Part shown: positions 14,659-46,914 of the stretch, piece by piece
Layout: each line of letters opens with the position of its first letter
Numbering within the stretch: position 1 is the stretch's first letter
Assembly (NCBI GenBank): GCA_030647435.1
Contig: JAUSJX010000029.1
Coordinates: forward strand, 62,001-126,000
DNA: 64,000 bases
Reading direction: 5' to 3'
Source of the DNA: Candidatus Rokuibacteriota bacterium
GTDB lineage: Bacteria > Methylomirabilota > Methylomirabilia > Rokubacteriales > CSP1-6
Notes under the pieces: generated by a model
Database searches by the model: none
What the model saw: the letters and a program-made list of their open reading frames with translations, nothing else
What the model was told of the DNA's origin: nothing
Made by a program: the position numbers and the translations under genes

Positions 14659-15240
14659 ATGAGCGAATCCGTTGTTCGCACACGCCGGTGGAGCCGTCTC
14701 GAGTATGACCGGCTAATCGAAGAGGGTGTCTTCCAGCCCGGCGAGCGCCTCGAGCTGCTGGCCGGGCAGCTGGTAGTCCGCGAGCCCCAGGGAACGCCGC
14801 ACGCCACGGGGATCCGGCTGGTCACGCGCGCCCTGCGTGAAGTGTTCGCAGACGACAGGTGGATCGTGGACATGCAGCTCCCCGTGGCCCTCGACAAAGA
14901 ATCCGAGCCGGAGCCGGACGTCACGGTGACCGCCGGCGACCCGCGGGATTTTCTGCCGTCACACCCGGCCCGGCCGGTGCTCGTCGTCGAGGTCGCCGAG
15001 GCGAGTCTTGCGCTCGATCGCGAGGAGAAGGGCGGCCTGTACGCGCGCGCTCACGTGCCCGAGTACTGGATCCTGAACCTTCGTGATCGCGTGCTCGAGG
15101 TCTATCGAGAACCGCATCCCGATCCCTCCGCTCCCCAGGCCTGGGCCTACCGCTCGCGCCAGAGCCTGGCCGCCGGAGAGCACGTCACGCCGTCCGCCGC
15201 GCCCACGGCGCGCATCGCCGTCGCCGACCTCCTGCCATGA
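14659..15240 (+). CDS. Uma2 family (DUF820) PD-(D/E)XK nuclease-like protein, copy 1
   Basis: 193 residues. The Uma2 restriction-endonuclease-like fold is indicated by the start region RRWSRLEYDRLIEEGVFQPG, the acidic EPEPDVTV, LVVEVAEASLALDREEKGGLYARA and PEYWILNL. The expected PD-(D/E)XK residues are the Asp in EPDV, the Glu in VEVAE and the following Lys. Physiological role of the family is unknown. Its stop overlaps the ATG of a paralogue (ATGA), so the pair is a tandem duplication with coupled translation. Confidence 0.88.
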   Translation: MSESVVRTRRWSRLEYDRLIEEGVFQPGERLELLAGQLVVREPQGTPHATGIRLVTRALREVFADDRWIVDMQLPVALDKESEPEPDVTVTAGDPRDFLPSHPARPVLVVEVAEASLALDREEKGGLYARAHVPEYWILNLRDRVLEVYREPHPDPSAPQAWAYRSRQSLAAGEHVTPSAAPTARIAVADLLP

Positions 15241-34627: not shown

Positions 34628-35056
34628 ATGGCTGAGGGGACTCAGGGCGTCAAGATCGACACGGTGCGGTCCTACTCGACCGGTACCCCGGGCCGCGCGC
34701 TGAACAGCGCGCGCCACAACCACTTCGTGCTGGACTCGCCCTCGGGCCCCAACGAGGCGCTGACCAACGGCGAGGCTTTCCTGGCCGGCGTCTCCTCCTG
34801 CGGCGTGACGCTCATCGAGAAGTACGCGCTGGAGAAGAACGTGCCCGTCAAGGGCATGCAGGTCGCCATCGAAGGCATCCGCAGCAACGCCGAGCCCAAC
34901 CGCTTCCAGTGCATCAACGTCTCGTTCGAGATTTGGGGCGTGAGCCAGGGGCAGGCCGAAGAGCTCGTGGAGGTCTGGAAGAGTCGCTGACCGCTCTACC
35001 GCACGGTCGCGGTCGCGACCGACGTGAAGGTGGACGTCCTCGCCGTTCTCGGGTGA
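34628..35056 (+). CDS. OsmC-family selenoprotein (in-frame UGA as Sec)
   Basis: 142 residues if TGA 34988-34990 is read as selenocysteine (residue 121); otherwise it stops at residue 120. OsmC/Ohr proteins reduce organic hydroperoxides with two cysteines. The first is in GVSSCGVTLIEKYAL. The second, in the C-terminal CPx motif, is replaced by UGA: KSR-U-PLYRTVAVATDVKVDV, after which a further 21 family-like residues run to TGA 35054. A hairpin with a 6-bp perfect stem and GGUC loop follows the UGA. Sequence up to residue 120 lacks the C-terminal strands of the OsmC fold, so termination there would make a defective protein. Confidence 0.85.
35005..35020 (+). promoter_or_regulatory. Candidate bacterial SECIS hairpin (OsmC-like gene)
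   Basis: GGTCGC (35005-35010), loop GGTC (35011-35014), GCGACC (35015-35020). Six perfect pairs; the GGU-containing loop begins 21 nt after the UGA. Position and loop match the SelB-binding element of known bacterial selenoprotein mRNAs. Confidence 0.7.
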
Positions 35057-35075
35057 CCTGCCGCCGGCGCCCGGT

Positions 35076-35922
35076 CTACCGCGTCCGGTAGGCGTAGAGC
35101 GTGAGGTTGTCCGCGCTGACGAGGAGCGTGCCGTCTTCAGTGAGCGCCATGCCCATGGGCCAGCCCCAGAGCCGCCCGCTCCAGAGAACGGCGCCCGTGC
35201 GCGTCTCGAAGGCGTAGACGCGGTTCGGCCCCTGCCCCGCGACGTAGAGCACGTTGCCCTTGAGCACCGGCTGCACCGGGACCGAGCCCGCCCGCGCGCT
35301 CCACGCGACCATGCCAGTACCCCGCGAGAGGGCCACGAGGGTCTCTGCGCTCGAGTTGGAGGCGGTGGCGACGAGCGAGCCCATGACGATGGGCGCGACG
35401 GGAGAGCTCGAGTCGAGCGGGCGGCTCCAGCGGTCCTTCTGCGTCGCCGGGTCGAAGGGTGGAAGACGCAGGTACCTGACGCCGACTGGGTCGTGACGTA
35501 GAGCGTGTCGTCGGCCGCCGCGATGCCCGCAGTCGGCGCGCTGCCGAGCGGCACGATCCACTCGAGGCCTCGGCTCTTGATGTTGACGGAGCCGAGGGAC
35601 GCCGCCCCGAGGAGATAGAGGTGGTCACCCAGAGAGACTGCGGGTAGGCGAGCGCCGCAGGCAGCTCGAGACTCTACCGCGCTCCTCCGTCGCCGGCCGC
35701 AACGGCGCGGAGCGTCTGCCCGTCCATGAAGAGCGCGGTGTCTCCAGCCGCGACCGGCTCGTCACCTGCCGCGGACGTCCCCGTCGGCGACGAGGAGCAG
35801 CCGCATAGGAGTGCCAGGACGGCGGCGAGGTCGGCGTGCGCGCGATGGCGCGGAGCATGCGCCGCCTTATCACGCCGGCTTTGACTTCGCAGGGGGCCGA
35901 GGGCAGACTTGGGGGCACTCAA
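35076..35922 (-). pseudogene. PQQ-type beta-propeller lipoprotein, frameshifted
   Basis: Three consecutive frames are needed. An N-terminal piece has a lipobox (AVLALLCGC) and DTALFMDGQTLRAVAAGDGG. A +/-1 shift near 35670 leads to LPAVSLGDHLYLLGAASLGS and APTAGIAAADDTLYVTTQSA. A second shift near 35475 leads to LRLPPFDPATQKDRWSRPLD, ALSRGTGMVAWSARAGSVP and YAFETRTGAVLWSGRLWGWP. The blade repeats (xxVYAFxxxTGxxxW) identify a PQQ-like propeller. Even the start is unclear: an ATG in another frame near 35860 suggests a third indel. Either a decayed gene or local sequence error. Confidence 0.7.
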
Positions 35923-35936
35923 GGAGACTTCCCCCC

Positions 35937-37007
35937 ATGCCCTCGAACCTCGACGAGCAGTTCCAGACGCTCCACGAAATCGCCCGCGCGGCGCGGCGCA
36001 ACCTGGCCGACGGTCCGTGGGACTATCTGGTCGGCGGCACCGAGACCGAGACCACCGTGAAGCGCAACCGCACGGCGATCGACTCGCTCGCCTGGAGACC
36101 CCGGGTGCTGCGCGACGTCTCCAAGGTGGACACCTCGTCCACCTTCCTCGGCAGGCCCGTGCGCATCCCCGTAATGCTGGCGCCGGTGGGGTCGGTCGAG
36201 AGCTTCGCGCCCGGCGGCGGCGCGACGGCGGGGAAAGCCTCCGGTGCCTTCGGCGTGCCGCACATGCTCTCGAGCGCCTGCAACCCGGGCCTCGAGGCGA
36301 CGGCGGCGGCGGCGGACAACTACCGCATCTTCCAGCTCTACGTCCGCGGCGACGACGCCTTCGTGGACGACCACGTCAAGCGCGCGCTGGACCACGGCTA
36401 CCACGCCTTCTGCATGACCGTGGACTCGGCGTCCTACAGCCGGCGCGAGCGCGACCTCGACAAGCGCTTCGTGAAGCCGTGGCGCGTCAAGGCGACGGGC
36501 GCGGAATACCAGGCCGCGCTCTCGTGGGACCAGGTCAAGCGCTTCAAGGACGCGCACGACGTGCCGCTGATCCTGAAGGGCATCGCCACCGGCGAGGACG
36601 CGGCGCTGGCCTGCGAGCACGGCGTGGAGGTCGTCTACGTCTCTAACCACGGCGGCCGCCAGCTCGACCACGGCCGGGGCTCGCTCGACGTGCTTCCCGA
36701 GGTGGTGGCGGCCGTCGCGGGCCGCGCCGCCGTCATGGTGGACGGCGGATTCATGCGCGGCACCGACGTGGTCAAGGCGATCACGCTCGGCGCGCAGTGC
36801 GTGGGGCTCGGCAGGCTCCAGTGCCTGGGCCTGGCGGCCGCGGGGCAGGCTGGGCTCGAGCGCGCGCTCGAGCTCCTCGAGGAGGAGATACGGATCTGCC
36901 TGGCGCTCCTCGGCGTGACGGGCTACGGCCAGCTCGACGCCTCGTATCTCCACGAGGCGAGGTCCGTCACCGAGCCCGGCGCGCTCTCCGCCTTCCCCCT
37001 GCTTTAA
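35937..37007 (+). CDS. FMN-dependent alpha-hydroxy acid oxidase/dehydrogenase
   Basis: 356 residues from ATG 35937, with AAGGAG upstream. TIM-barrel family of lactate/glycolate oxidase: MLAPVGSVESFAPGGGATAG, FQLYVRGDDAFVDDHVKRAL, catalytic His in YVSNHGGRQLDHGRGSLDVL and the FMN-phosphate region VMVDGGFMRGTDVVKAITLG. Oxidises an L-2-hydroxy acid to the keto acid; the substrate is not resolved. First of a + strand run of redox genes. Confidence 0.93.
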   Translation: MPSNLDEQFQTLHEIARAARRNLADGPWDYLVGGTETETTVKRNRTAIDSLAWRPRVLRDVSKVDTSSTFLGRPVRIPVMLAPVGSVESFAPGGGATAGKASGAFGVPHMLSSACNPGLEATAAAADNYRIFQLYVRGDDAFVDDHVKRALDHGYHAFCMTVDSASYSRRERDLDKRFVKPWRVKATGAEYQAALSWDQVKRFKDAHDVPLILKGIATGEDAALACEHGVEVVYVSNHGGRQLDHGRGSLDVLPEVVAAVAGRAAVMVDGGFMRGTDVVKAITLGAQCVGLGRLQCLGLAAAGQAGLERALELLEEEIRICLALLGVTGYGQLDASYLHEARSVTEPGALSAFPLL

Positions 37008-37022
37008 CCGAGGGACCGCACC

Positions 37023-37631
37023 GTGAAACAGACGCTGCTCACACTGGCAGTCATCGCTCTCGCGGCGGGCTGCGTGACGCCCTATGGCGAGGGCCAGTCG
37101 GCCTTGCAGAAGGGGCGCTTCGCCGAGGCCGAGGGTTACTTCAGCCAAGCCCTGGCCGCCGACCCTGGCCGCACTGACGCGCTGGTGGGGTTGGGCATCG
37201 CCCAGTACAAGCAGGGGGAGATCGACCAGGCAAGCGACACGCTCCAGAAGGCCGTCCTGATCCGCCCCAATGAACCGAGCGTGCGCCTCTACCTGGGCTT
37301 GGCCTATCTGCGGAATCAGGACTCGCTCCAGGCCGAGCAGCAGCTGACGGCGCTCCGTTCACTCAACATCGACCCGCGCGTCGCACAGCAGATCGACCGC
37401 GCGCTCGAGGTGATCAGGCAGGGGCCGCTCAGCGATCCCGTTCGCGACTTTCTCGTCGGCAGCCTCGAGACTCAGGCGCAGCTCAGTCGTGATGCGCAGG
37501 ACGCGCTCCTTCAGGCCCAGCGGGCTCAGGCCTACTACTTTCCCTACTACCCCTATGTCTATCCCTACTTCGCCGCCCCCTTCGGCCCCTGCGTCCTCGT
37601 GAGGCGTGGCGGGGGCTGGTTCTGCATGTGA
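37023..37631 (+). CDS. TPR-containing lipoprotein
   Basis: 202 residues from a GTG. Lipoprotein signal peptide (MKQTLLTLAVIALAAGC), then four or five TPR-like helices (AEGYFSQALAADPGRTDALV, GIAQYKQGEIDQASDTLQKA, LYLGLAYLRNQDSLQAEQQL) and a Tyr/Phe/Pro-rich C-terminus (YYFPYYPYVYPYFAAPFGP). Probably a periplasmic scaffold anchored in a membrane. 15 bases after the preceding gene. Confidence 0.88.
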   Translation: MKQTLLTLAVIALAAGCVTPYGEGQSALQKGRFAEAEGYFSQALAADPGRTDALVGLGIAQYKQGEIDQASDTLQKAVLIRPNEPSVRLYLGLAYLRNQDSLQAEQQLTALRSLNIDPRVAQQIDRALEVIRQGPLSDPVRDFLVGSLETQAQLSRDAQDALLQAQRAQAYYFPYYPYVYPYFAAPFGPCVLVRRGGGWFCM

Positions 37632-37658
37632 TGTAGGATGTTGCCCCAGGGGGGTTCC

Positions 37659-38537
37659 ATGACGATCTCGACGGGCACGCTCCAGATGCACAGGCTCCAC
37701 CCCGCCTTCGGCGTCGGAATCGAAGGCGTGGATCTCCGCCAGCCGCTCGATGACGGCACATGGGCGCACATCTGGGAGGCCTTCAACGAGCATTCCCTCC
37801 TGGTCTTCCACGGCCAGCCGCTGTCGGACGACGAGCAGATGCGCTTCAGCCTGCGCTTCGGCCCGCTCGAGACGACCGTCAAGACGCTGGGCAAGGAAGA
37901 CCGCCTGCACCCGAACCTCGTCGGGCTGGCCAACGTGGACGAGGACGGCAAGCTCATGGACTGGACGGACCGGCGCATGGTCTACCAGAGCGGCAACCAG
38001 ATGTGGCACAGCGACTCGTCGTTCAAGCAGGTGCCGGCCCAGGCCTCCCTCCTCTCCGGCCGCCTGGTGCCGCCCGAGGGCGGCGAGACGGAGTTCGTCT
38101 CCTGCCGCGTCGCCTGGGAGGCGCTTGCCCCCGAGATGCAACGCCGGCTCGAAGGCAAGGTCGCCGTCCACTCCTTCGCGTACTCGCGCGGGCTGATCGA
38201 CCCGACGCTGCTCGGCCCCGACGTCCAGCAGGCCCTGCCGCCCGTGCGCCAGGCCCTCGTCCGCGCCAATCCCCTCAACGGAAGGAAGAGCGTCTACATC
38301 GGCTCGCACGCCTCGCACATCGAGGGCACGCCCGTCGAGGAGAGGCGCGCGCTCTTGAAGGAGCTGCTCGAGCTGGCCACGCGCCCGGAGCGCGTGCACC
38401 AGCACGCGTGGCGCCAGCACGACCTCGTCATCTGGGACAACCGCTGCCTGCTGCACCGCGGCCGTCCCTGGGACGCCAAGCGCCACACGCGCGTCATGCA
38501 CCGGACCACCGTCGCCGGCGAGGGACCCACCGCATGA
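37659..38537 (+). CDS. TauD/TfdA-family Fe(II)/2-oxoglutarate dioxygenase
   Basis: 292 residues from ATG 37659 (an ATG at 37638 precedes the purine-rich ribosome site and is less likely). 2-His-1-carboxylate facial triad: HxD in MWHSDSSF, and the distal His with the 2-oxoglutarate-binding Arg in LLHRGRPWDAKRHTRVMHRT. Relatives hydroxylate sulfonates, phenoxy acids or other small acids; substrate unknown. Its TGA overlaps the ATG of the next gene (ATGA), so it is translationally coupled to the UGSC selenoprotein. Confidence 0.93.
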   Translation: MTISTGTLQMHRLHPAFGVGIEGVDLRQPLDDGTWAHIWEAFNEHSLLVFHGQPLSDDEQMRFSLRFGPLETTVKTLGKEDRLHPNLVGLANVDEDGKLMDWTDRRMVYQSGNQMWHSDSSFKQVPAQASLLSGRLVPPEGGETEFVSCRVAWEALAPEMQRRLEGKVAVHSFAYSRGLIDPTLLGPDVQQALPPVRQALVRANPLNGRKSVYIGSHASHIEGTPVEERRALLKELLELATRPERVHQHAWRQHDLVIWDNRCLLHRGRPWDAKRHTRVMHRTTVAGEGPTA

Positions 38538-40183
38538 GCGGCGCGACGACGATCACGGCCCTGAACCCGGTCGGCTTCGCCCCGAAGGTGACCCGCAAGG
38601 CGTTGGCGCCCAGGCTCGATACGCTCGAGGGCAAGACCGTCTACCTGGTGGACTGCCGCTTCGACGATTCCGACGTCTTCCTCAAGCAGATGCAGGCGTG
38701 GTTCGCTTCGCACATGCCGGGCGTGCGCACGGTCTTCAAGCCGATCTCGAGCGTGTACCTGCACGACGACCCGACGACCTGGGAGGAGATCAAGGCGAAG
38801 GGGCACGCCGCCATCCTCGGCGTCGGCCACTGAAGCACCTGCGCGCCGGCGGTCGCCGCGCACGCGATGACGATCGAAGCGGCGTACGGGATCCCCGTCG
38901 TCGCCATGCATACCGACAAGTTCGACCGGGTGGTCCGCTCGGTGGCGGCGGTGAACGGGATGCCGGGGCTCCGGCAGGTGTTCGTCCCCCAGCCCATCAT
39001 GGGCAAGACGGCCGCCCAGCTGCGCGCGTACGTCGACGGCACGGATCCCATCACCGGCCGCCCGGTCATGCAGGAGGTCATCGAAGGACTGACCCAGCCA
39101 TTCGACCCGAAGGACCTGGGCGCTGTCGAGTTCGACCGCTCGACACCCAGGCTCGTCGAGCCCGGCACGGAGGCGGAGCTCCACCGTCTCTTCCTCGACA
39201 ACAACTGGACGGACAAGCTGCCGATCGTGCTGCCGACCGAGGAGCGCGTGGCGGCGATGCTGGCCGCGACGCGCCGCAAGCCTGATGAAGTCGTCGGGCG
39301 CATGCGCTCGACCCACTTCCGAGAGTACTGGGAATACACAGTAGAGAAGGTCGCCGTGAACGCGGTCATGGCGGGGGCGCGGCCAGAGTACTTCCCGGTG
39401 ATCCTGGCGCTCGGCGCGACGGGCGTCACCGCGCGGAGCAGCAGCTCGAGCGCCATGGCGTCCATGGCCGTCGTCAACGGACCGATCCGCGACGAGATCG
39501 GCATGAACGCGGGCACGGGCGCGCTCGGCCCGTACAGCCACGCCAACGCCACCATCGGAAGAGCCTACGGCCTCCTTTCCCAGAACGGCCAGGGCGGCTC
39601 CGTCCCGGGCCACAGCTACATGGGCAACCAGGGCAACAACTACGCCTACAACAGCGTCACCTTCGCCGAGAACGAGGAGCGGAGCCCCTGGGAGCCCTTC
39701 CATGTCCAGCACGGCTTCAAGCCGGCGGACAGCGCGGTCAGCGTCTTCAGCGGCTGCCGCTCGACATCCTTCACGCTCGGGCTCCGCGAGAAGCACTGGC
39801 GCCTACACGTGCGCAGCATGCTGCGCGGCATGGACCCGCACACGCCGCCGACGCTCCTGCTCGATCCCATCGCCGCGCGCCAGTTCATCGACCGCGCGGG
39901 GTTCACGAAGAAGGACGCGCTCATCGACTGGCTCTTCGAGACCGCGACGATGCCGGCCGGCGAGTACTGGGACTCCCAGCTCATCCAGAACTACATCTAT
40001 CCGCGCGCGACCTTCGGCGAGGAGCCGTGGGCATCGAAGCTCAAGGCCGCGCCCGACGAGCTGATCCCGATGTTCCGTCGAGAAGACATCCATGTCGTAG
40101 TCGTCGGGGGTGAGACCAACGGGTACTGGCGCATCATGGGCTGCAACTACCAGAAGACCGTCTCGATCGACGAGTGGCGGTAG
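38534..40183 (+). CDS. UGSC-family selenoprotein (in-frame UGA as Sec)
   Basis: 549 residues when TGA 38831-38833 (codon 100) is decoded as Sec. The N-part (TVYLVDCRFDDSDVFLKQMQ, AAILGVGH) joins without any frame change to U-STCAPAVAAHAMTIEAAYGI and PVVAMHTDKF, giving a U-x-x-C redox motif of the UGSC type. The C-part (residues ~170-549) contains ILALGATGVTARSSSSSAMA and GHSYMGNQGNNYAYNSVTFA. A separate gene starting at 38867 would lack the motif. A GGUC-capped stem follows the UGA. Reaction unknown; a selenol redox enzyme is inferred. Coupled to the TauD-like dioxygenase upstream. Confidence 0.88.
38843..38861 (+). promoter_or_regulatory. Candidate bacterial SECIS hairpin (UGSC gene)
   Basis: CGGC (38847-38850), loop GGTC (38851-38854), GCCG (38855-38858). 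It is extended by GCG/CGC (38843-38845 with 38859-38861) past a single bulged C. The loop begins 18 nt after the UGA. Confidence 0.65.
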
Positions 40184-40222
40184 GACGATCGCCCCGCACA
40201 GACACCATGAGGGAGTACCCGT

Positions 40223-40846
40223 ATGAATGCTGACCGTCTAAGGATGCCTCTCGGCGAAGCCCTGTTCACCCAGCGCTCGATGCGCAAGCTCCGGCCCGAC
40301 CCGATCCCGGACGAGGACATCCGCCTGATCCTCGAGGCCGCGGTCAAGGCGCCCAATGGTGGCAACCACCAGACCGCGCGCTTTCTCGTGGTCACCGACC
40401 GGCAGAAGATCCGCGAGTTCGGCGAGCTCTACCGCGAGGCGTGGTGGGCCAAGCGCAAGGACGACCACGGCTGGACCGGGCCCCAGGACGTCCCGCCGGG
40501 GGAGAAGAACTACGCCTCTGCCATGGGGCTCGCCGACGCGATGAAGGACGTCCCCTGCGTCGTCTTCGCGCTTACGGAGCCGACCGGCGGAGCCAACTCG
40601 GTCATCCCGGCCTGCCAGAACCTCATGCTGGCGGCCCACGCGCTCGGGATCGGCTCGCTCCCAACAACGCTCCACGCCGTGGTCATGGACCGCTTCCGCG
40701 CGCTCTTCGCCATCCCGAAGGAGCTGACCTTCCACTTCTGCATCCCGCTCGGCTATCCGGCCGTCAAGTACGGGCCGAGCCGGCGCAAGCCGATCGAGGA
40801 GACCACCTCGTGGAACCTCTGGGGGGGACGCGTGCCGTGGGCGTGA
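40223..40846 (+). CDS. Nitroreductase-family flavoprotein
   Basis: 207 residues. FMN-binding nitroreductase fold: ALFTQRSMRKLRPDPIPDED (phosphate-binding Arg pair), AAVKAPNGGNHQTARFLVVT, and the C-terminal ACQNLMLAAHALGIGSLPTT and IPLGYPAVKYGPSRRKPIEE. Reduces nitro, quinone or related groups with NAD(P)H; the substrate is open. The stop overlaps the GTG of the following LLM oxidoreductase (GTGA). Confidence 0.94.
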   Translation: MNADRLRMPLGEALFTQRSMRKLRPDPIPDEDIRLILEAAVKAPNGGNHQTARFLVVTDRQKIREFGELYREAWWAKRKDDHGWTGPQDVPPGEKNYASAMGLADAMKDVPCVVFALTEPTGGANSVIPACQNLMLAAHALGIGSLPTTLHAVVMDRFRALFAIPKELTFHFCIPLGYPAVKYGPSRRKPIEETTSWNLWGGRVPWA

Positions 40847-41751
40847 CGCGCAAGCCCGCGGTCAGCCTGGCGGCCGCGCCGGGGCGGCGGCGCGCCACCA
40901 TCGAGGTCGCCCAGCGCTTCGAGAAGGAGGGCTTCGCCGGCATCTACTGCCCGAGCTACGGCGACGGCCTGGGGCTCTGCGAGGCGCTGGCGCTCGAGAC
41001 CAAGGAGATCCGGTTCGGGACGTCCATCGCCAACATCTACTCGCGCCACCCCCACGACTACGCGCACACGGCCGCGTTCATCCACGAAATCTCCGGGGGC
41101 CGCTTCCGCTTCGGAATCGGCGTCAGCCACGGCCCCACGCTCGCGCGGCTCAAGGTGACCGCGGGCAAGCCCCTCGAGGACATGCGCCGCTTCGTCACTG
41201 AGCTCGGCGCGGGCGCCAAGCAGGCGGGCGCGCTGCCTCCCATCGTGCTGGCGACGCTCAGGCAGAAGATGGTCGCCCTGGCCGGCGAGATCGCCCAGGG
41301 CGCGGTGTGGGCCAACGCGGCGCGCTCTCACATGGCCGCGTCGCTCAGCCACCTCCCGGCCGCCCTGCGCAGCGACCCCGGCTTCTTCGTCGGCAACATG
41401 CTACCGACCTGCATCGACAACGACAAGTCCGCGGCCGCGGCCGTCAACCGGCGCACGCTGATAAGCTACGTCAAGCTCCCCAACTACCAGAACTACTGGA
41501 TCGAAGCCGGCTTCGAGGATGAGATGCTGGCGATCCGGAAGGCCATCGCCGCCGGCGAGGAGGACCGCATTCCCTCGCTCATGTCCGACCGCTGGCTCTC
41601 GCAGGTCACCCTCTACGGCAGCGCCGCGGAGGTCCGCGACGGCATCGAGGCCTGGTACGCGGCGGGCGTCAACACCCCGATCGTCGTGCCGTCCTCCACG
41701 AAGGGCGGCCAGATGGTCGCCATCCAGGAGCTCATCGACCTTTACCGCTGA
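40843..41751 (+). CDS. LLM-class flavin-dependent oxidoreductase
   Basis: 302 residues from GTG 40843, which overlaps the nitroreductase stop. Luciferase-like TIM barrel with F420/FMN-type features: AQRFEKEGFAGIYCPSYGDG, FGTSIANIYSRHPHDYAHTA, GRFRFGIGVSHGPTLARLKV and the C-terminal YGSAAEVRDGIEAWYAAGVN. Probably a flavin- or F420-dependent monooxygenase or dehydrogenase. A much longer frame start at 40441 only overlaps nitroreductase. Confidence 0.92.
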   Translation: MTRKPAVSLAAAPGRRRATIEVAQRFEKEGFAGIYCPSYGDGLGLCEALALETKEIRFGTSIANIYSRHPHDYAHTAAFIHEISGGRFRFGIGVSHGPTLARLKVTAGKPLEDMRRFVTELGAGAKQAGALPPIVLATLRQKMVALAGEIAQGAVWANAARSHMAASLSHLPAALRSDPGFFVGNMLPTCIDNDKSAAAAVNRRTLISYVKLPNYQNYWIEAGFEDEMLAIRKAIAAGEEDRIPSLMSDRWLSQVTLYGSAAEVRDGIEAWYAAGVNTPIVVPSSTKGGQMVAIQELIDLYR

Positions 41752-41768
41752 CCGAGGACCAACAGCCC

Positions 41769-42239
41769 ATGCTGCGCTACGGGTACGAGGCTCCGGCGTT
41801 CTCCCTCCCCTCGACGAGCGGCCGCGACATCTCGCTGGCCGAGTTCAAGGGCGCATCCGACGTCGTGCTGTTGTTCTACTGCTACGACTGGGGGAACATC
41901 TGAACGCCCGAGCTCCGCGACCTCGGTGAGGTCGCCGGCGAGCTTCAGGCCAAGGGCGCCGTCGTGCTCGGGATCAGCGGGGACACGCCCTTCTCGCACG
42001 CGGAGTACCACAGGCGGCACGCGCTGCCGTTTCCGCTCCTGAGCGACGTGCACCGGAGCGTGATCCAGGCGTACGGCGTGTGGGACGAGGAGCGCAACGT
42101 CGCCTACCGCTCGACGGTCGTCGTGGACCGCGACGGCCGGGTGCGCTGGTCGCAGTCGGGCGACCGGCTGATGACCCGGAGCGGCGCCGAGATCCTCCGC
42201 GTCCTCGACTTGATCCACCGCCTCCGCACGGCGGGCTAG
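41769..42239 (+). CDS. Peroxiredoxin-like selenoprotein (in-frame UGA as Sec)
   Basis: 156 residues when TGA 41901-41903 (codon 45) is Sec. Thioredoxin-fold AhpC/TSA protein: PAFSLPSTSGRDISLAEFKG, VVLLFYCYDWGNI-U-TPELRDL, AVVLGISGDTPFSHAEYHRR, FPLLSDVHRSVIQAYGVWDE and STVVVDRDGRVRW. The U occupies the peroxidatic Cys position (usual C-T-x-E-L). Upstream GAGGA serves the ATG. A later-starting ORF at 41964 lacks the active site. The mRNA after UGA forms an 8-bp perfect stem with a GGU loop, the strongest SECIS candidate here. Reduces peroxides, by family analogy. Confidence 0.9.
41917..41935 (+). promoter_or_regulatory. Candidate bacterial SECIS hairpin (peroxiredoxin gene)
   Basis: GCGACCTC (41917-41924), loop GGT (41925-41927), GAGGTCGC (41928-41935): eight perfect pairs closing a GGU triloop 22-24 nt after the UGA. 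Confidence 0.75.
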
Positions 42240-42327
42240 CCGCGGCCGTCTGCTCTGCCGGTCCCTGATGGTCGCGTGGAGGGCTCCCGCCCTGTGATTC
42301 CCGACCCCGAGTTGACCTCTGATTCCC

Positions 42328-42440
42328 GCTCTGGCAGGATCGGCGCGAGGTGGGAGGGGGGAGTTATCCGCGCTGTGACAAGGAAAGCCCTCGGGCTCGA
42401 CGGGCGATGACTGAGAACGGGTTTTATGTTATCTACCCTC
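42328..42440. repeat. Left arm of ~113-bp inverted repeat flanking a methyltransferase
   Basis: GCTCTGGCAGGATCGG through GTTATCCGCGCTGTGACAAG to TTATGTTATCTACCCTC. It matches the reverse complement of 43445-43558 at most positions, with small indels. It contains the methyltransferase stop codon on the - strand and, on +, an ATGTTATCTAC that copies the methyltransferase start. The 42240-42327 gap holds nothing recognisable. Confidence 0.75.
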
Positions 42441-43460
42441 CCGTTCTGGGGATGCACGAGGCAGCACGGAGGAACATGCTGCCGCGGGCTTCGTGGCAAG
42501 CACCGTGTTGTACGCGTTGCCGAAGACGAACCCTTTCGATGTGCGCCAAATGATCCCTTCCAATTCCACGAATGTGCGCATCTTGAGCCGGTACTTCCAC
42601 AACAGCATGTGTCGAATGAAGTTCCAGGTGAGGCCCCAGGCCCAGAACGGCAGTCGCCGATACCGGATCGGGTCGAAGCCGAGTCGGCGCGTCTTGTAGA
42701 CGAGAAGATTGGCGCCGAGAAAATTGTAGCGCCAATTGTCGAAGAAGGCAGTGACGCTCCGGTAATCCTCCTCACGGCGACAATGATCCAGCGACCCTGG
42801 TGAGCGGATCATCAGGCGTCCTCCCGGCTTGAGCATCCGCCAGCACCGCGCCAGCCAAGCGTCCAAGTCCTTGGTGTAGCCGATCGATTCGAGCGCATAG
42901 ATGGCGTCAAAACTCTCGCTCGGGAGATCGAGAATGTCGAAGTCGGTGAGAATCACGCGGACGCGCCCGCCAAACTTCGCAAATTTCCGCCGGCAGATGT
43001 CCGCTTGCACAGAGGAATTGGTCACGCACACGATTTCGATATTGCACCGGCTGGCGAGGTAGTAGGCCGCCGCGCCCGAACCGCACCCGAGCTCCAACAG
43101 CCGCATCCCGTCCCTCGGTTTCAGAAGAGCGCACTCGGCTTCGTAAGGATACGTGAATGCCGCACGGGGAAAAACACACGTGCTGTAATTCGCTTGCTCG
43201 TCGCGATATGCGCGGAACACGTCATCATATGTGCGATTCTCGTCGTCGTGCTTGAGAAAGTCGTCCACCCGCGGTGTCCACTCGACTAGTTGGCGCTGCT
43301 CGAATTCATTCAACTGGTGGCCGAGCTTGCTTGCGTCCTTCGGATGCGTGACGAGGAGAAAAAGGGCGTAATGAAAAAGGTTGTACGCCACGAACAATCC
43401 GACGATGATCGCCGCGGCCAATGGGAGTATCGAAACAGTACCCAAGAGCGTAGATAACAT
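42429..43460 (-). CDS. Membrane-anchored SAM-dependent methyltransferase
   Basis: 343 residues from the ATG at 43460; N-terminal hydrophobic helix (MLSTLLGTVSILPLAAAIIV, then GLFVAYNLFHYALFLLV). Class I methyltransferase: motif I LLELGCGSGAAAYYLASRC, EIVCVTNSSVQADICRRKFA, then ILDLPSESFDAIYALESIGY and MLKPGGRLMIRSPGS. The arrangement recalls sterol/gamma-tocopherol C-methyltransferases; substrate unknown, probably lipid. Start and stop codons both lie inside flanking inverted repeats. The tail VLPRASPEREGR is partly repeat-encoded. Base composition is lower in GC than its neighbours. Confidence 0.88.
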   Translation of the reverse strand: MLSTLLGTVSILPLAAAIIVGLFVAYNLFHYALFLLVTHPKDASKLGHQLNEFEQRQLVEWTPRVDDFLKHDDENRTYDDVFRAYRDEQANYSTCVFPRAAFTYPYEAECALLKPRDGMRLLELGCGSGAAAYYLASRCNIEIVCVTNSSVQADICRRKFAKFGGRVRVILTDFDILDLPSESFDAIYALESIGYTKDLDAWLARCWRMLKPGGRLMIRSPGSLDHCRREEDYRSVTAFFDNWRYNFLGANLLVYKTRRLGFDPIRYRRLPFWAWGLTWNFIRHMLLWKYRLKMRTFVELEGIIWRTSKGFVFGNAYNTVLATKPAAACSSVLPRASPEREGR

Positions 43461-43558
43461 ACACCCCGTTCTCAGCCATGGCGACCCGCGGCCCAGGCTC
43501 TTCCCCTTGTCACAGTGCGGATAACGCGCCTCCCATCTCGGGCCGATCCTGCCAGAGC
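43445..43558. repeat. Right arm of ~113-bp inverted repeat flanking a methyltransferase
   Basis: GAGCGTAGATAACATACACC through CTTGTCACAGTGCGGATAAC to CGATCCTGCCAGAGC, the partner of 42328-42440. It includes the methyltransferase ATG and its probable leader. Confidence 0.75.
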
Positions 43559-43667
43559 ACGTCGGAGCAGTCAAATCGGCGCCTCGACGCAGGGGGCGAG
43601 AGCTGTCACCCGGGGCGCAAGCAGCGGCACGGCAGACGTCCGCGGCTGCCTGGGCCCCCGGCACCGC

Positions 43668-43853
43668 CTAGAAGGTTACGCGGGGGAGTGCCAGCTGCTC
43701 GACTCCTGCCTCAGTCATGGAAAACGAAGGCTGCGGGCCGTCCCGCGTGCCCGGGAGTTCGAGATGGGCGAGGATCGGCTCAATGACGGCCGGATCGTCG
43801 ATCGTGAGCCACATGTACGATCGCATCTTCGCCGTCGTCGTGCCCAAACGCAT
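43668..43853 (-). pseudogene. Short fragment, possibly a transposase C-terminus
   Basis: 61 residues containing LTIDDPAVIEPILAHLELPG, a pattern like the C-terminal end of IS91-type transposases (DPxVIxxILxHLGLP). No upstream transposase sequence remains. The rest of the 43461-43923 gap contains only the inverted-repeat arm and GC-rich sequence. May be a decayed element or a chance frame. Confidence 0.35.
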
Positions 43854-43923
43854 TTCTCCGACGGGCTCCTAACCCGAACCCCTCACCTGATCTGACGCGT
43901 GAGGCGGCCGGCCATGAAGCCGG

Positions 43924-44892
43924 TCAGGTGAGCTCGGGGATTACCCAGCGCGGCTTGTCGCCGGCGGCGACGCGCTGGATGTTGTCGAAGCCGTTGCGGA
44001 AGCGGGCGGTCCAGTTCTCCCAGGTGGGCCCCGCCGAGTGCGGCGTGAGCGTGACGTTCGGCAGCGCGAAGAGCGGATGGCTCGGCGCGGGAGGCTCCTC
44101 GACGAACACGTCGAGCCCGGCGCCCGCGATCTGGCCCTGCGTGAGCGCCCGGTGGAGCGCGTCTTCGTCCACCACGGGCCCGCGGCAGGTGTTGATGACA
44201 ATCGCGCTCCGCTTCATCATCCCGAGCTCGCGCGCTCCCAGGAGCCTGCGCGTCGAGTCCGTGAGCGGCACGTGCAAGCTCACGACGTCCGAGGTGCGCA
44301 GGAGCTCCTCCAGGAGCACGAAGCGGGCCCCTATCGCGTCCTCCTGGTCCTCGGTGAGGCGGGCGATGTCGTAGTACTGGACGGCCATGTCGAACGGCGC
44401 CGCCCGGCGGGCGACCTTCTTGCCGATGTTGCCGAGGCCCACGATACCGAGCGTCTTGCCCGCCAGCTCGTAGATGCGCGACTCGTTCGGGTTGCCCGCG
44501 CGCCACTTCCCCGCGACCACGTCGTTGTGGAAGCGGACGACCCGCTTCAGGACGGCCAGCATGAGCATGATCGTGTGCTCGGCCACGGCGATGGCGTTGG
44601 CACCGCCGTTGTTCGCCACGGGCACCTTCGCTTTCCGGGCCGCTTCGATATCGACGTGGTCGTACCCGGCGCTGATGAGTTGGACGAGGCGCATCTTCGT
44701 CGCCGAACGGAAGAACTCGCCGCCCATCTGGCGCGCGAGACCCAGGTAGAACTCGGCCGTCGGGGCCGCTTCGTAGAACTCCGGCGTACCGGGTTCCGCC
44801 ATCACCAGCTCGAAATCGGGCGGCGTCAGGCTCCGCGCGATCTCCATGATCGCGTCGGCCTGCTTGGGAGCGAAGAGGATCTTGGTCGCCAT
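43924..44892 (-). CDS. D-2-hydroxyacid dehydrogenase family protein
   Basis: 322 residues. NAD(P)-dependent: LQLISAGYDHVDIEAARKAK-like substrate domain (here VQLISAGYDHVD), Rossmann GLGNIGKKVARR, catalytic Arg in INTCRGPVVDEDAL, Glu in VFVEEPPAPSHPL and His in TLTPHSAGPTWENW. Acts on glycerate/lactate-like acids. Followed upstream (28 bases) by a cupin on the same strand. Confidence 0.94.
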   Translation of the reverse strand: MATKILFAPKQADAIMEIARSLTPPDFELVMAEPGTPEFYEAAPTAEFYLGLARQMGGEFFRSATKMRLVQLISAGYDHVDIEAARKAKVPVANNGGANAIAVAEHTIMLMLAVLKRVVRFHNDVVAGKWRAGNPNESRIYELAGKTLGIVGLGNIGKKVARRAAPFDMAVQYYDIARLTEDQEDAIGARFVLLEELLRTSDVVSLHVPLTDSTRRLLGARELGMMKRSAIVINTCRGPVVDEDALHRALTQGQIAGAGLDVFVEEPPAPSHPLFALPNVTLTPHSAGPTWENWTARFRNGFDNIQRVAAGDKPRWVIPELT

Positions 44893-44920
44893 GGGGTCTC
44901 CTTGGTCACTGCTGCTGGGG

Positions 44921-45262
44921 TCACTGCTGCTGGAGCGGAATCGTGGTCGTCAGGCAGGGCTGGGTGCCGTAGACCTTCGTGGTGTGTCCCTGCCCCGTTG
45001 TGTCCTCGACCAGCCGCGCGTCGCCGGGACCGAAGAGGTGCTTCGAGCCGTCGCCCAGGCCGATCTCGAGCTGGCCCGACAGGATGATGACGAACTGCCG
45101 GCGCGGAGCCGGATGCCAGTCCAGGAAGCGCCCAACCGGGTCTTCCCTGAACGAGATCTGCGTCGTCGCCAGGCCCTTGCCCCAGTCGGGGGTCTTGTCG
45201 AGCGCGATCGGCTCGACGCGGGACTTGCTGTCGGCGCCCGTGTACAGTCGGAACAGTGCCAT
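44921..45262 (-). CDS. Single-domain cupin protein
   Basis: 113 residues from the ATG at 45262, with GGGAGG upstream. Compact beta-barrel: FLDWHPAPRRQFVIILSGQL and GDGSKHLFGPGDARLVEDTT, then GQGHTTKVYGTQPC. Metal-ligand His residues in the first motif are partly replaced (HPAPRRQ), so it may bind a ligand without catalysis. Divergent from the LLM gene. Confidence 0.85.
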   Translation of the reverse strand: MALFRLYTGADSKSRVEPIALDKTPDWGKGLATTQISFREDPVGRFLDWHPAPRRQFVIILSGQLEIGLGDGSKHLFGPGDARLVEDTTGQGHTTKVYGTQPCLTTTIPLQQQ

Positions 45263-45384
45263 CGCTGCCTCCCGGTCTCGTGGTGAATAACCTCGTAGTG
45301 GAAAACGACGGGATAGTAGCACGCGGTGGGGGCCCTGAAACGCGCCTTGAACACGGAGGACCCCCGCGCTACTCTTGCCCCCTT

Positions 45385-46431
45385 ATGCACTTCGGCGTAT
45401 TCATCGAGGAGCTGCGGCCCGGAGTCGGCGAGGCCGACGCGTTCCGCGAAAGCTTCGAGACGGTGGACGCCGCCGAGACCCTGGGGTTCGACTGCGTGTG
45501 GCTCGGCGAGATCCACTTCAACCCGGCCCGCTCCGTGCTCTCCTCGCCGATCGCGATGGCCACCGCGATCGCCGCCCGCACCAAGCGGATCCACGTCGGG
45601 ACGGCGGTGCAGGTCCTGCCGCTGAACCATCCGCTCCGCATCGCAGAGGACACCGCCACCGTGGACCACCTCAGCGAGGGACGCTTCGAGTTCGGGATCG
45701 GGCGCAGCGGAGCCCCGCGCGCCTACGACGTCCTCGGCATTCCCTACGGCGAGAGCCAGGCCCGCTTCCGCGAAGCGCTCGCGATCATCAAGGAAGCCTG
45801 GAAGGGCCAGCCGTTCAGCTACGAGGGCAAGTTCTACCGCTTCGAGAACGCGACCGTCGCGCCGCGCCCGTACCAGAAGCCGCATCCGCCCATCCGCATG
45901 GCCGCCAATACTCCCGACACGTTTTCGCTTGTCGGCGAGCTGGGGCTGGCGCTCTTCGCGGGCCTGCGCGACCTGGACATCCCCGAGCTGGTCGAGTGTC
46001 TTCAGCTGTACCGTCGCGCCTGGCGCGAGGCGGGCCACCCGGGACGGCCGAGCGTCTACCTCCGCATCCCCGTCTACGCGGGTCTCACGGAGTCGGGCGC
46101 GCTCGAGGAGCCGCGGGAGAGCATCACAGCCTTCTTCCGCCGCCAGGCCGACCTCATGAAGACCTCGGTCGGGCGGGCGGGCGCGGGCCCGGCGGACCGG
46201 CGCGCGGCCAAGGCGGAGCGGCTGGGGCAGCTGCCGTACGAGGAGATCCTTCGCACGCGCGTGGCATTTGGCACGGCCGCCCAGCTGATCGAGCGCCTGA
46301 CCGAGCTCCGAGACGAGCTCGGCCTCGACGGCATCGTGGTCGAGCCGAACCCCGCCGGCCTGATCCCGACGGAATACGCCGCGCGGAGTCTCAGCATCGT
46401 AGCCCGCGACGTCATGCCCGCGTTCAAGTAA
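45385..46431 (+). CDS. LLM-class flavin-dependent oxidoreductase
   Basis: 348 residues from ATG 45385. Bacterial luciferase-like barrel: MHFGVFIEELRPGVGEADAF, GFDCVWLGEIHFNPARSVLS, VGTAVQVLPLNHPLRIAEDT, GRFEFGIGRSGAPRAYDVLG and PRPYQKPHPPIRMAAN. Closely fits FMNH2-dependent monooxygenases (alkanal monooxygenase-like). Substrate unknown. Divergent from the cupin; convergent with the DUF411 selenoprotein. Confidence 0.93.
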   Translation: MHFGVFIEELRPGVGEADAFRESFETVDAAETLGFDCVWLGEIHFNPARSVLSSPIAMATAIAARTKRIHVGTAVQVLPLNHPLRIAEDTATVDHLSEGRFEFGIGRSGAPRAYDVLGIPYGESQARFREALAIIKEAWKGQPFSYEGKFYRFENATVAPRPYQKPHPPIRMAANTPDTFSLVGELGLALFAGLRDLDIPELVECLQLYRRAWREAGHPGRPSVYLRIPVYAGLTESGALEEPRESITAFFRRQADLMKTSVGRAGAGPADRRAAKAERLGQLPYEEILRTRVAFGTAAQLIERLTELRDELGLDGIVVEPNPAGLIPTEYAARSLSIVARDVMPAFK

Positions 46432-46455
46432 GTATCGTTGGTTCTTCGCGCAGCC

Positions 46456-46914
46456 CTAGCGGGTGGCGAAGACGGCGGTCTTGCCGGAGCGGTCGAAGAT
46501 CAGGACCTGGTAGGGCTCGGACGTCTGGCCCGAGGACTCCATGCCGGGCGAGCCGGCGGGCATGCCGGGCACGGCGAGGCCCGCCGCGCGCGGGCGCTCC
46601 CGCAGCAGGCGGTCGATGAGATCGGCCGGCACGTGGCCCTCGATCACGTAGCCCTCGACGAGAGCGGTGTGACAAGCCTCGAGGCGCTTGGGGACGCCAT
46701 AGCGCCGCTTGATCGGCGTGACGTCGGGGACGTTCTCCTCCTTGACCGGATAACCGCTGGCGCGCAGGTGACCCACCCACCCTTCGCAGCAGCCTCAGGT
46801 GGGCTCCTTGTACACAAGCACCGTGGGCTTGCCCGCCGCCGCGGCCGGCGTTCCGAGCAGGCCGATTAGCCCGACGGCGAAAAATCCTCTCCGAGAGATC
46901 CGGCCCGCGCTCAT
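46456..46914 (-). CDS. DUF411 selenoprotein with Tat-like signal (in-frame UGA as Sec)
   Basis: 152 residues from the ATG at 46914 when TGA 46797-46795 (codon 40) is Sec. The N-terminus SRRGFFAVGLIGLLGTPAAA has a twin-arginine-like motif, so periplasmic export is likely. DUF411 proteins carry K-x-P-T-C-G-C-C; here it reads LVYKEPT-U-GCCEGWVGHLRAS, so U takes the first Cys. The remainder (KRRYGVPKRLEACHTALVEG, YVIEGHVPADLIDRLL, LAVPGMPAGSPGME) is typical. DUF411 genes are often near copper-handling genes; none is adjacent here. A GGU-loop hairpin follows the UGA. The ORF starting at 46776 lacks both signal and motif. Confidence 0.85.
46764..46780 (-). promoter_or_regulatory. Candidate bacterial SECIS hairpin (DUF411 gene)
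   Basis: On the - strand GGTG (46777-46774), loop GGT (46773-46771), CACC (46770-46767), extended by G-U, U-G and G-C pairs outwards. The loop is 22-24 nt after the UGA. It is the weakest of the four stems because part of it uses G-U pairs and G-rich slippage is possible. Confidence 0.55.

Follow-up and report, generated by a model that had tools for sequence, protein, structure and literature searches.

We found that four genes in the stretch of DNA analysed here are very probably genuine bacterial selenoprotein genes, decoded by SelB and tRNA-Sec and conserved independently of one another, and that their proximity reflects a gene arrangement at the level of the genus. The stretch (64,000 nucleotides, hereafter the window) is part of contig C29 in a 5.79-Mb genome assembly that is 98% complete and comprises 176 contigs. 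A sequence-only reading had proposed that four genes of unrelated families each carry exactly one in-frame TGA, and we recovered all four, with Pfam support for each family: an OsmC-like gene, a UGSC-family gene, an AhpC/TSA-like gene and a DUF411 gene. The recoding signals, the decoding machinery, the conservation and the gene order are demonstrated by computation. From the sequences, we infer that the proteins are synthesised with selenocysteine (Sec) and work as selenol-based redox enzymes. SelB and tRNA-Sec would decode the in-frame UGA of each gene, directed by a hairpin whose loop contains GG and starts 20-24 nt 3' of the UGA. The host would be an uncultured bacterium of the Rokubacteria type (Methylomirabilota) whose selenoproteome is large.

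Every TGA in the 64 kb was ranked by a codon-usage scan that was trained on long reading frames and was blind to the four-gene finding. The four in-frame TGAs took ranks 1 (AhpC-like), 2 (OsmC-like), 3 (UGSC) and 5 (DUF411), and they were among nine TGAs in the window with coding signal on both sides. Two of the others (54271 and 60723) were rejected as Sec codons, as they stand at the ends of long frames with another frame adjoining and are read as gene junctions; those at 14961, 27390 and 37361 were likewise not accepted. All four genes combine an in-frame TGA with coding sequence that is conserved on both sides and in orthologues. Counting the window, TGA is kept at the same residue in 12 UGSC, 15 OsmC-like, 10 AhpC-like and 6 DUF411 sequences, that is, in all sequences of each set; in genomes of the same family, identity to the window proteins is 80-94% for UGSC, 55-97% for OsmC, 63-96% for the closest AhpC-like group and 57-89% for DUF411. 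These counts bear on the view that the four TGAs represent normal termination codons or errors of sequencing, the frame beyond each being fortuitous or a pseudogene remnant, a view that could appeal to the fragmented assembly and to a nearby PQQ-like frame that looks broken. However, TGA, never TAA or TAG, occupies the same residue in 6 to 15 sequences from different genomes, and coding signal on either side, hairpins and Sec machinery also speak against it; because the TGA is conserved in orthologues, the view is refuted in practice, and we assign it almost no probability.

We found that the genome encodes SelA, SelB, SelD and tRNA-Sec. The genes for tRNA-Sec (71 bits, anticodon tca), selB (380 bits) and selA (584 bits) lie together on one contig, C56, and selD, which is itself Sec-coded with an in-frame TGA, lies on contig C98 (G000:C98:94090-95046, locus L026). 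The observation that the window holds none of these genes was borne out: ARAGORN detected no tRNA-Sec in it, and the sel genes are located on other contigs. The objection that the host might lack Sec machinery clearly fails. The presence of tRNA-Sec(UCA) and SelB also argues against a change of the genetic code that would make TGA a sense codon for something other than Sec, as does the rarity of TGAs that appear to be read through, which number just a handful per megabase; we found no point in favour of such a code change and regard its probability as negligible.

As the standard for a bacterial selenoprotein hairpin, we took an apical loop that is rich in G and lies about 16-25 nt 3' of the UGA. 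The best hairpin 3' of the TGA, sought without an assumed position, has such a loop in the OsmC-like, AhpC-like and DUF411 genes; the UGSC hairpin is a weaker case, being bulged, invariant and read manually. The apical loops, which the sequence-only reading had described as GGU-type at +18 to +24, begin at +20 for UGSC (GGUC), at +23 for OsmC (GGUC) and at +24 for both the AhpC-like gene and DUF411 (GGU).

The OsmC-like gene (34628-35056, forward strand; PF02566, 44 bits) encodes 142 amino acids, with Sec at codon 121 (TGA 34988-34990, forward strand) in the motif SRUPLYRT. Its SECIS-like hairpin, CGGTCGC-GGTC-GCGACCG (35004-35021, forward strand), has a stem of 7 bp and a loop of the GGNN type, and 7 of 7 pairs are intact in 15 of 15 sequences. 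Third codon positions in the stem are invariant and most of those outside it vary, the single exception being the loop codon. The Sec residue aligns to the resolving-Cys position of Ohr/OsmC proteins, and all 15 orthologues retain Cys at the peroxidatic position, Cys58 (in the site SSCGVT). Sec in this protein is thus predicted to stand for the resolving, not the peroxidatic, Cys. The proposal that Sec always occupies the catalytic Cys position consequently holds only in part: it is correct for the AhpC-like protein (peroxidatic position), plausible for UGSC and DUF411, where Sec is the first residue of a UxxC and a CGCC-type motif, respectively, and incorrect for OsmC. Between the OsmC-like gene and the FMN dehydrogenase gene, a PQQ-like beta-propeller frame (35076-35922, reverse strand) appears to be split over frames, by a frameshift or as a pseudogene; a homologue (56-57%) occurs near OsmC in two genomes of the same genus, G002 and G004.

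The UGSC-family gene (38534-40183, forward strand; PF24696, 88 bits against a cut-off of 25) carries its Sec codon at 38831-38833 (forward strand), in the motif GVGHUSTC, and Cys42, Sec101 and Cys104 (numbered from 38531) are invariant. The automatic search returned no clean uninterrupted hairpin here; by manual reading, we identified a plausible SECIS-like hairpin at 38843-38861 (forward strand) with one bulged C, which is identical in the 12 sequences and therefore carries no covariation information. In an AlphaFold model of moderate confidence (pLDDT 76), the first domain is predicted to be Rossmann-like and Sec to lie at the start of a helix, and Foldseek returned no match to this model below E 0.001. 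A resemblance of the UxxC site to that of GrdB/PrdB is conceivable. The UGSC domain is fused to a partner domain of about 330 amino acids for which we found neither a Pfam family nor a significantly related PDB entry; when a homologue of the partner domain was modelled from its sequence alone, the pLDDT was 33. Many paralogues of the partner domain are present in the genome (for example at L064 9547-11133 and 13662-14998, and at L150 12636-14326), often fused or close to UGSC genes, and the domain also occurs as a separate gene near UGSC genes. This association suggests that UGSC and the partner domain may form a two-part enzyme.

The AhpC/TSA (AhpE-like) gene (41769-42239, forward strand; PF00578, 126 bits) has its Sec codon at 41901-41903 (forward strand), in the motif YDWGNIUTPEL. 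Sec aligns to the peroxidatic Cys of Mycobacterium tuberculosis AhpE (Rv2238c; PDB 5id2), so that the protein combines an AhpC/TSA domain with Sec at the peroxidatic position. The SECIS-like hairpin, GCGACCTC-GGT-GAGGTCGC (41917-41935, forward strand), keeps its pairs in nearly all of the 10 sequences, with a paired share of 0.98-1.0 that varies with the loop size, and has GGU or GGC in the loop at +24. Two pairs of the stem occur in two types, and there is one double change, in the sequence L095.

The DUF411 gene (46456-46914, reverse strand; PF04214, 93 bits) encodes 152 amino acids, with Sec40 (TGA 46797-46795, reverse strand) in the motif PTUGCC and, as read by eye, a Tat-like signal, SRRGFF. 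The PTUGCC motif aligned with the CGCC of a Cys-containing homologue (PDB 6wis, E 1.5e-38), which places the protein among the CGCC-type members. In an alignment of 69 sequences, the SECIS-like hairpin (46764-46780, reverse strand) was paired in 84% of cells, as compared with 35-58% for slid partners, and 0 of 1000 shuffles matched it. We predict an exported copper-handling product in which Sec takes the place of the leading Cys of CGCC.

We found Sec-coded DUF411 in many phyla. Searching GTDB genomes for the pattern PTUGCC..W yielded more than 117 matching stretches, and among these, 64 of the 80 loci taken further carried a DUF411 homologue that runs through the TGA. The taxa include Methylomirabilota, Acidobacteria, Gemmatimonadota, Chloroflexi, several proteobacterial classes and Helicobacter; the homologues L219 and L239, found among records of Candidatus Rokubacteria, Rokuibacteriota and Methylomirabilota, are 73-74% identical to the window protein, which is our basis for the probable placement of the host in this group. 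Named strains among the carriers include Parendozoicomonas callyspongiae. A tRNA-Sec above the cut-off was present in 23 of 29 genomes with Sec-DUF411, as compared with 5 of 13 in which the pattern match was spurious, and these two figures are comparable. When selB or a more permissive tRNA search is included, the first figure rises to 27 of 29, which is not strictly comparable with 5 of 13, since the more permissive searches were applied only to the six DUF411 genomes that initially failed. Helicobacter brantae and H. cholecystus (L199 and L240) both have a Sec-coded DUF411, and in their genomes selB is present and a weak match to tRNA-Sec lies nearby; a gene next to DUF411 in H. cholecystus that a Pfam hint had marked as a possible selD is purM.

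Copper P-type ATPases adjoin Sec-DUF411 in two Chloroflexi, a MerB/SaoL-like gene adjoins it in a Rokuibacteriota genome (L219 4193-4732), and a MerR-family regulator and a heavy-metal ATPase neighbour a plasmid-borne Cys-DUF411. The copper-ATPase neighbours suggest that the protein may be an exported, copper-binding selenoprotein; since most other neighbours scanned are unrelated, this assignment to copper or another soft metal is a moderate one. The 119 prokaryotic selenoprotein families catalogued in 2026 (PMC13188914) do not include Sec-DUF411 (PTUGCC), and NCBIfam holds no model that matches the window protein. Our search found no publication joining 'selenoprotein' and 'DUF411'; Haft and Tolstoy 2025 and Deng et al. 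2026, which lie outside this comparison, might report it. Sec-DUF411 is thus probably an uncatalogued selenoprotein family. We give slightly better than even odds to a broader proposal, namely that Sec-DUF411 is undescribed and very widespread, is Tat-exported here and uses its selenol for copper or a soft metal, and that OsmC-like proteins of this bacterial family carry Sec at the resolving position.

The sequence-only reading had also noted flavin and 2-oxoglutarate oxidoreductases nearby, and Pfam identified FMN_dh, TauD, a nitroreductase and two luciferase-like monooxygenases. Seven genes on the forward strand (35937-42239), with gaps of at most 40 bp and two overlaps, form a probable operon in the order FMN dehydrogenase, TPR protein, TauD dioxygenase, UGSC, nitroreductase, luciferase-like monooxygenase, AhpC-like. 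UGSC and the AhpC-like gene therefore probably share one operon, and the OsmC-like gene and DUF411 are separate units. By random placement, four TGAs would fall within 11.9 kb with a probability of 0.0014 for 35 selenoprotein genes and 0.0144 for 65, in a simulation that scored any such cluster genome-wide for a window that was itself picked for its cluster; the local density of in-frame TGAs is thus above chance (0.14-1.4% for 35-65 genes). The genome-wide number is an estimate from a 1.28-Mb sample (0.66 Mb of it unbiased), in which we counted, roughly and with acceptance by eye, about 19 Sec genes, including other AhpC-like and UGSC genes, some of them paired; by the same rough acceptance, the 662 kb chosen regardless of known matches held two further clear Sec genes. 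Other close pairs in this genome are an AhpC-like with a TlpA-like gene (L148, 15128 and 15676), an AhpC-like tandem (L146, 10164 and 10822) and two UGSC genes (L064, contig C137, 29823 and 34996). One Methylomirabilota assembly is cited as having 63 predicted selenoproteins (PMC13188914). We conclude that the concentration is real, and that with a very large selenoproteome it would not be extreme.

Such clustering, being unlikely by chance, could indicate a dedicated selenium-dependent redox module in which selection holds the four genes together. In keeping with such a module, a genome of the same genus, G001 (L051), retains the order FMN dehydrogenase, TauD, UGSC, nitroreductase, luciferase-like monooxygenase, AhpC-like, and thus the operon shared by UGSC and the AhpC-like gene; in another genome, G016, the OsmC and AhpC-like genes lie 8 kb apart. 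A second genome of the genus, G003, has the order molybdopterin enzyme, OsmC, FMN dehydrogenase, followed further on by UGSC, and the luciferase-like monooxygenase gene adjoins DUF411 in both G001 and G003. Beyond the genus, however, UGSC orthologues (80-85% identity) stand among unrelated neighbours, and orthologues of OsmC, DUF411 and the AhpC-like gene are mostly on different contigs, a comparison limited by the fragmentation of many of these genomes. In the window itself, DUF411 stands alone between genes of the opposite strand. We therefore consider a selected module unlikely. The suggestion of a selenium-using redox neighbourhood, if read as one functional unit, is not supported by this comparison, as the order is conserved within the genus only. 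Relatives in which the genes are dispersed and Cys-coded had been named as a finding that would count against the cluster; outside the genus they are mostly dispersed, but every readable close orthologue remains Sec-coded. We read the cluster as a genus-level arrangement in which each Sec gene is conserved independently; it does not constitute a conserved 'selenium island'.

These findings add a probably uncatalogued selenoprotein family, whose genes, in many phyla, are truncated at the UGA by standard reading, and an OsmC protein with Sec in an unusual position, that of the resolving Cys. If a selenol does occupy what is probably a copper-binding motif, it would tie selenium to copper homeostasis in a way that can be tested. 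More generally, the data point to an uncultured bacterial group with a large selenoproteome, and indicate that clusters of selenoprotein genes need to be checked across genera before they are read as functional modules.

Three of the four proteins can be assigned to known kinds of selenoprotein, as members or as variants, and one, DUF411, is without an entry in the published family list. The AhpC-like protein shares with Sec-peroxiredoxins (PF00578; TxxU) a Sec at the AhpE-type Cys position, but in its sequence there, FYCYDWGNIU, C40 and G44 replace the Pro and Thr of PxxxTxxC/U, both invariant in orthologues. Because Pro and Thr are missing, we call it AhpC/TSA-like rather than a peroxidase; judged by sequence, peroxidase activity is uncertain. 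The UGSC protein shares the UGSC domain and a Sec-containing UxxC motif with its family (PF24696, NF041046), but the motif is USTC, not UGSC, and the protein is fused to the partner domain. It scored 55.9 bits against the NCBIfam equivalog NF041046 (cut-off 125) and is thus a UGSC-domain protein, not the equivalog. Published OsmC-like selenoproteins, whose motif is UxxT (PMC1088965, PMC13188914), likewise have an OsmC domain and one Sec; in the window protein, however, Sec lies in UPLY and the CxxT site keeps its Cys, so that it falls outside the UxxT group, and it scored 19.7 bits against NCBIfam NF041052 (cut-off 95). Judged from the motif string alone, the published UxxT would fit the other (CxxT) site. 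The DUF411 protein belongs over its full length to the same family as Cys-containing DUF411 proteins (PF04214; 6wis and 6wje), and differs in having Sec as the first Cys of CGCC.

Among the window proteins scanned, which represent part of the window's genes, we detected no Sao or Tso proteins. Like the SAO and Tso selenoprotein operons (PMC13188914), the window brings several unrelated selenoprotein genes close together; it differs from them in that two of its four genes lie in one operon and the arrangement is restricted to one genus.
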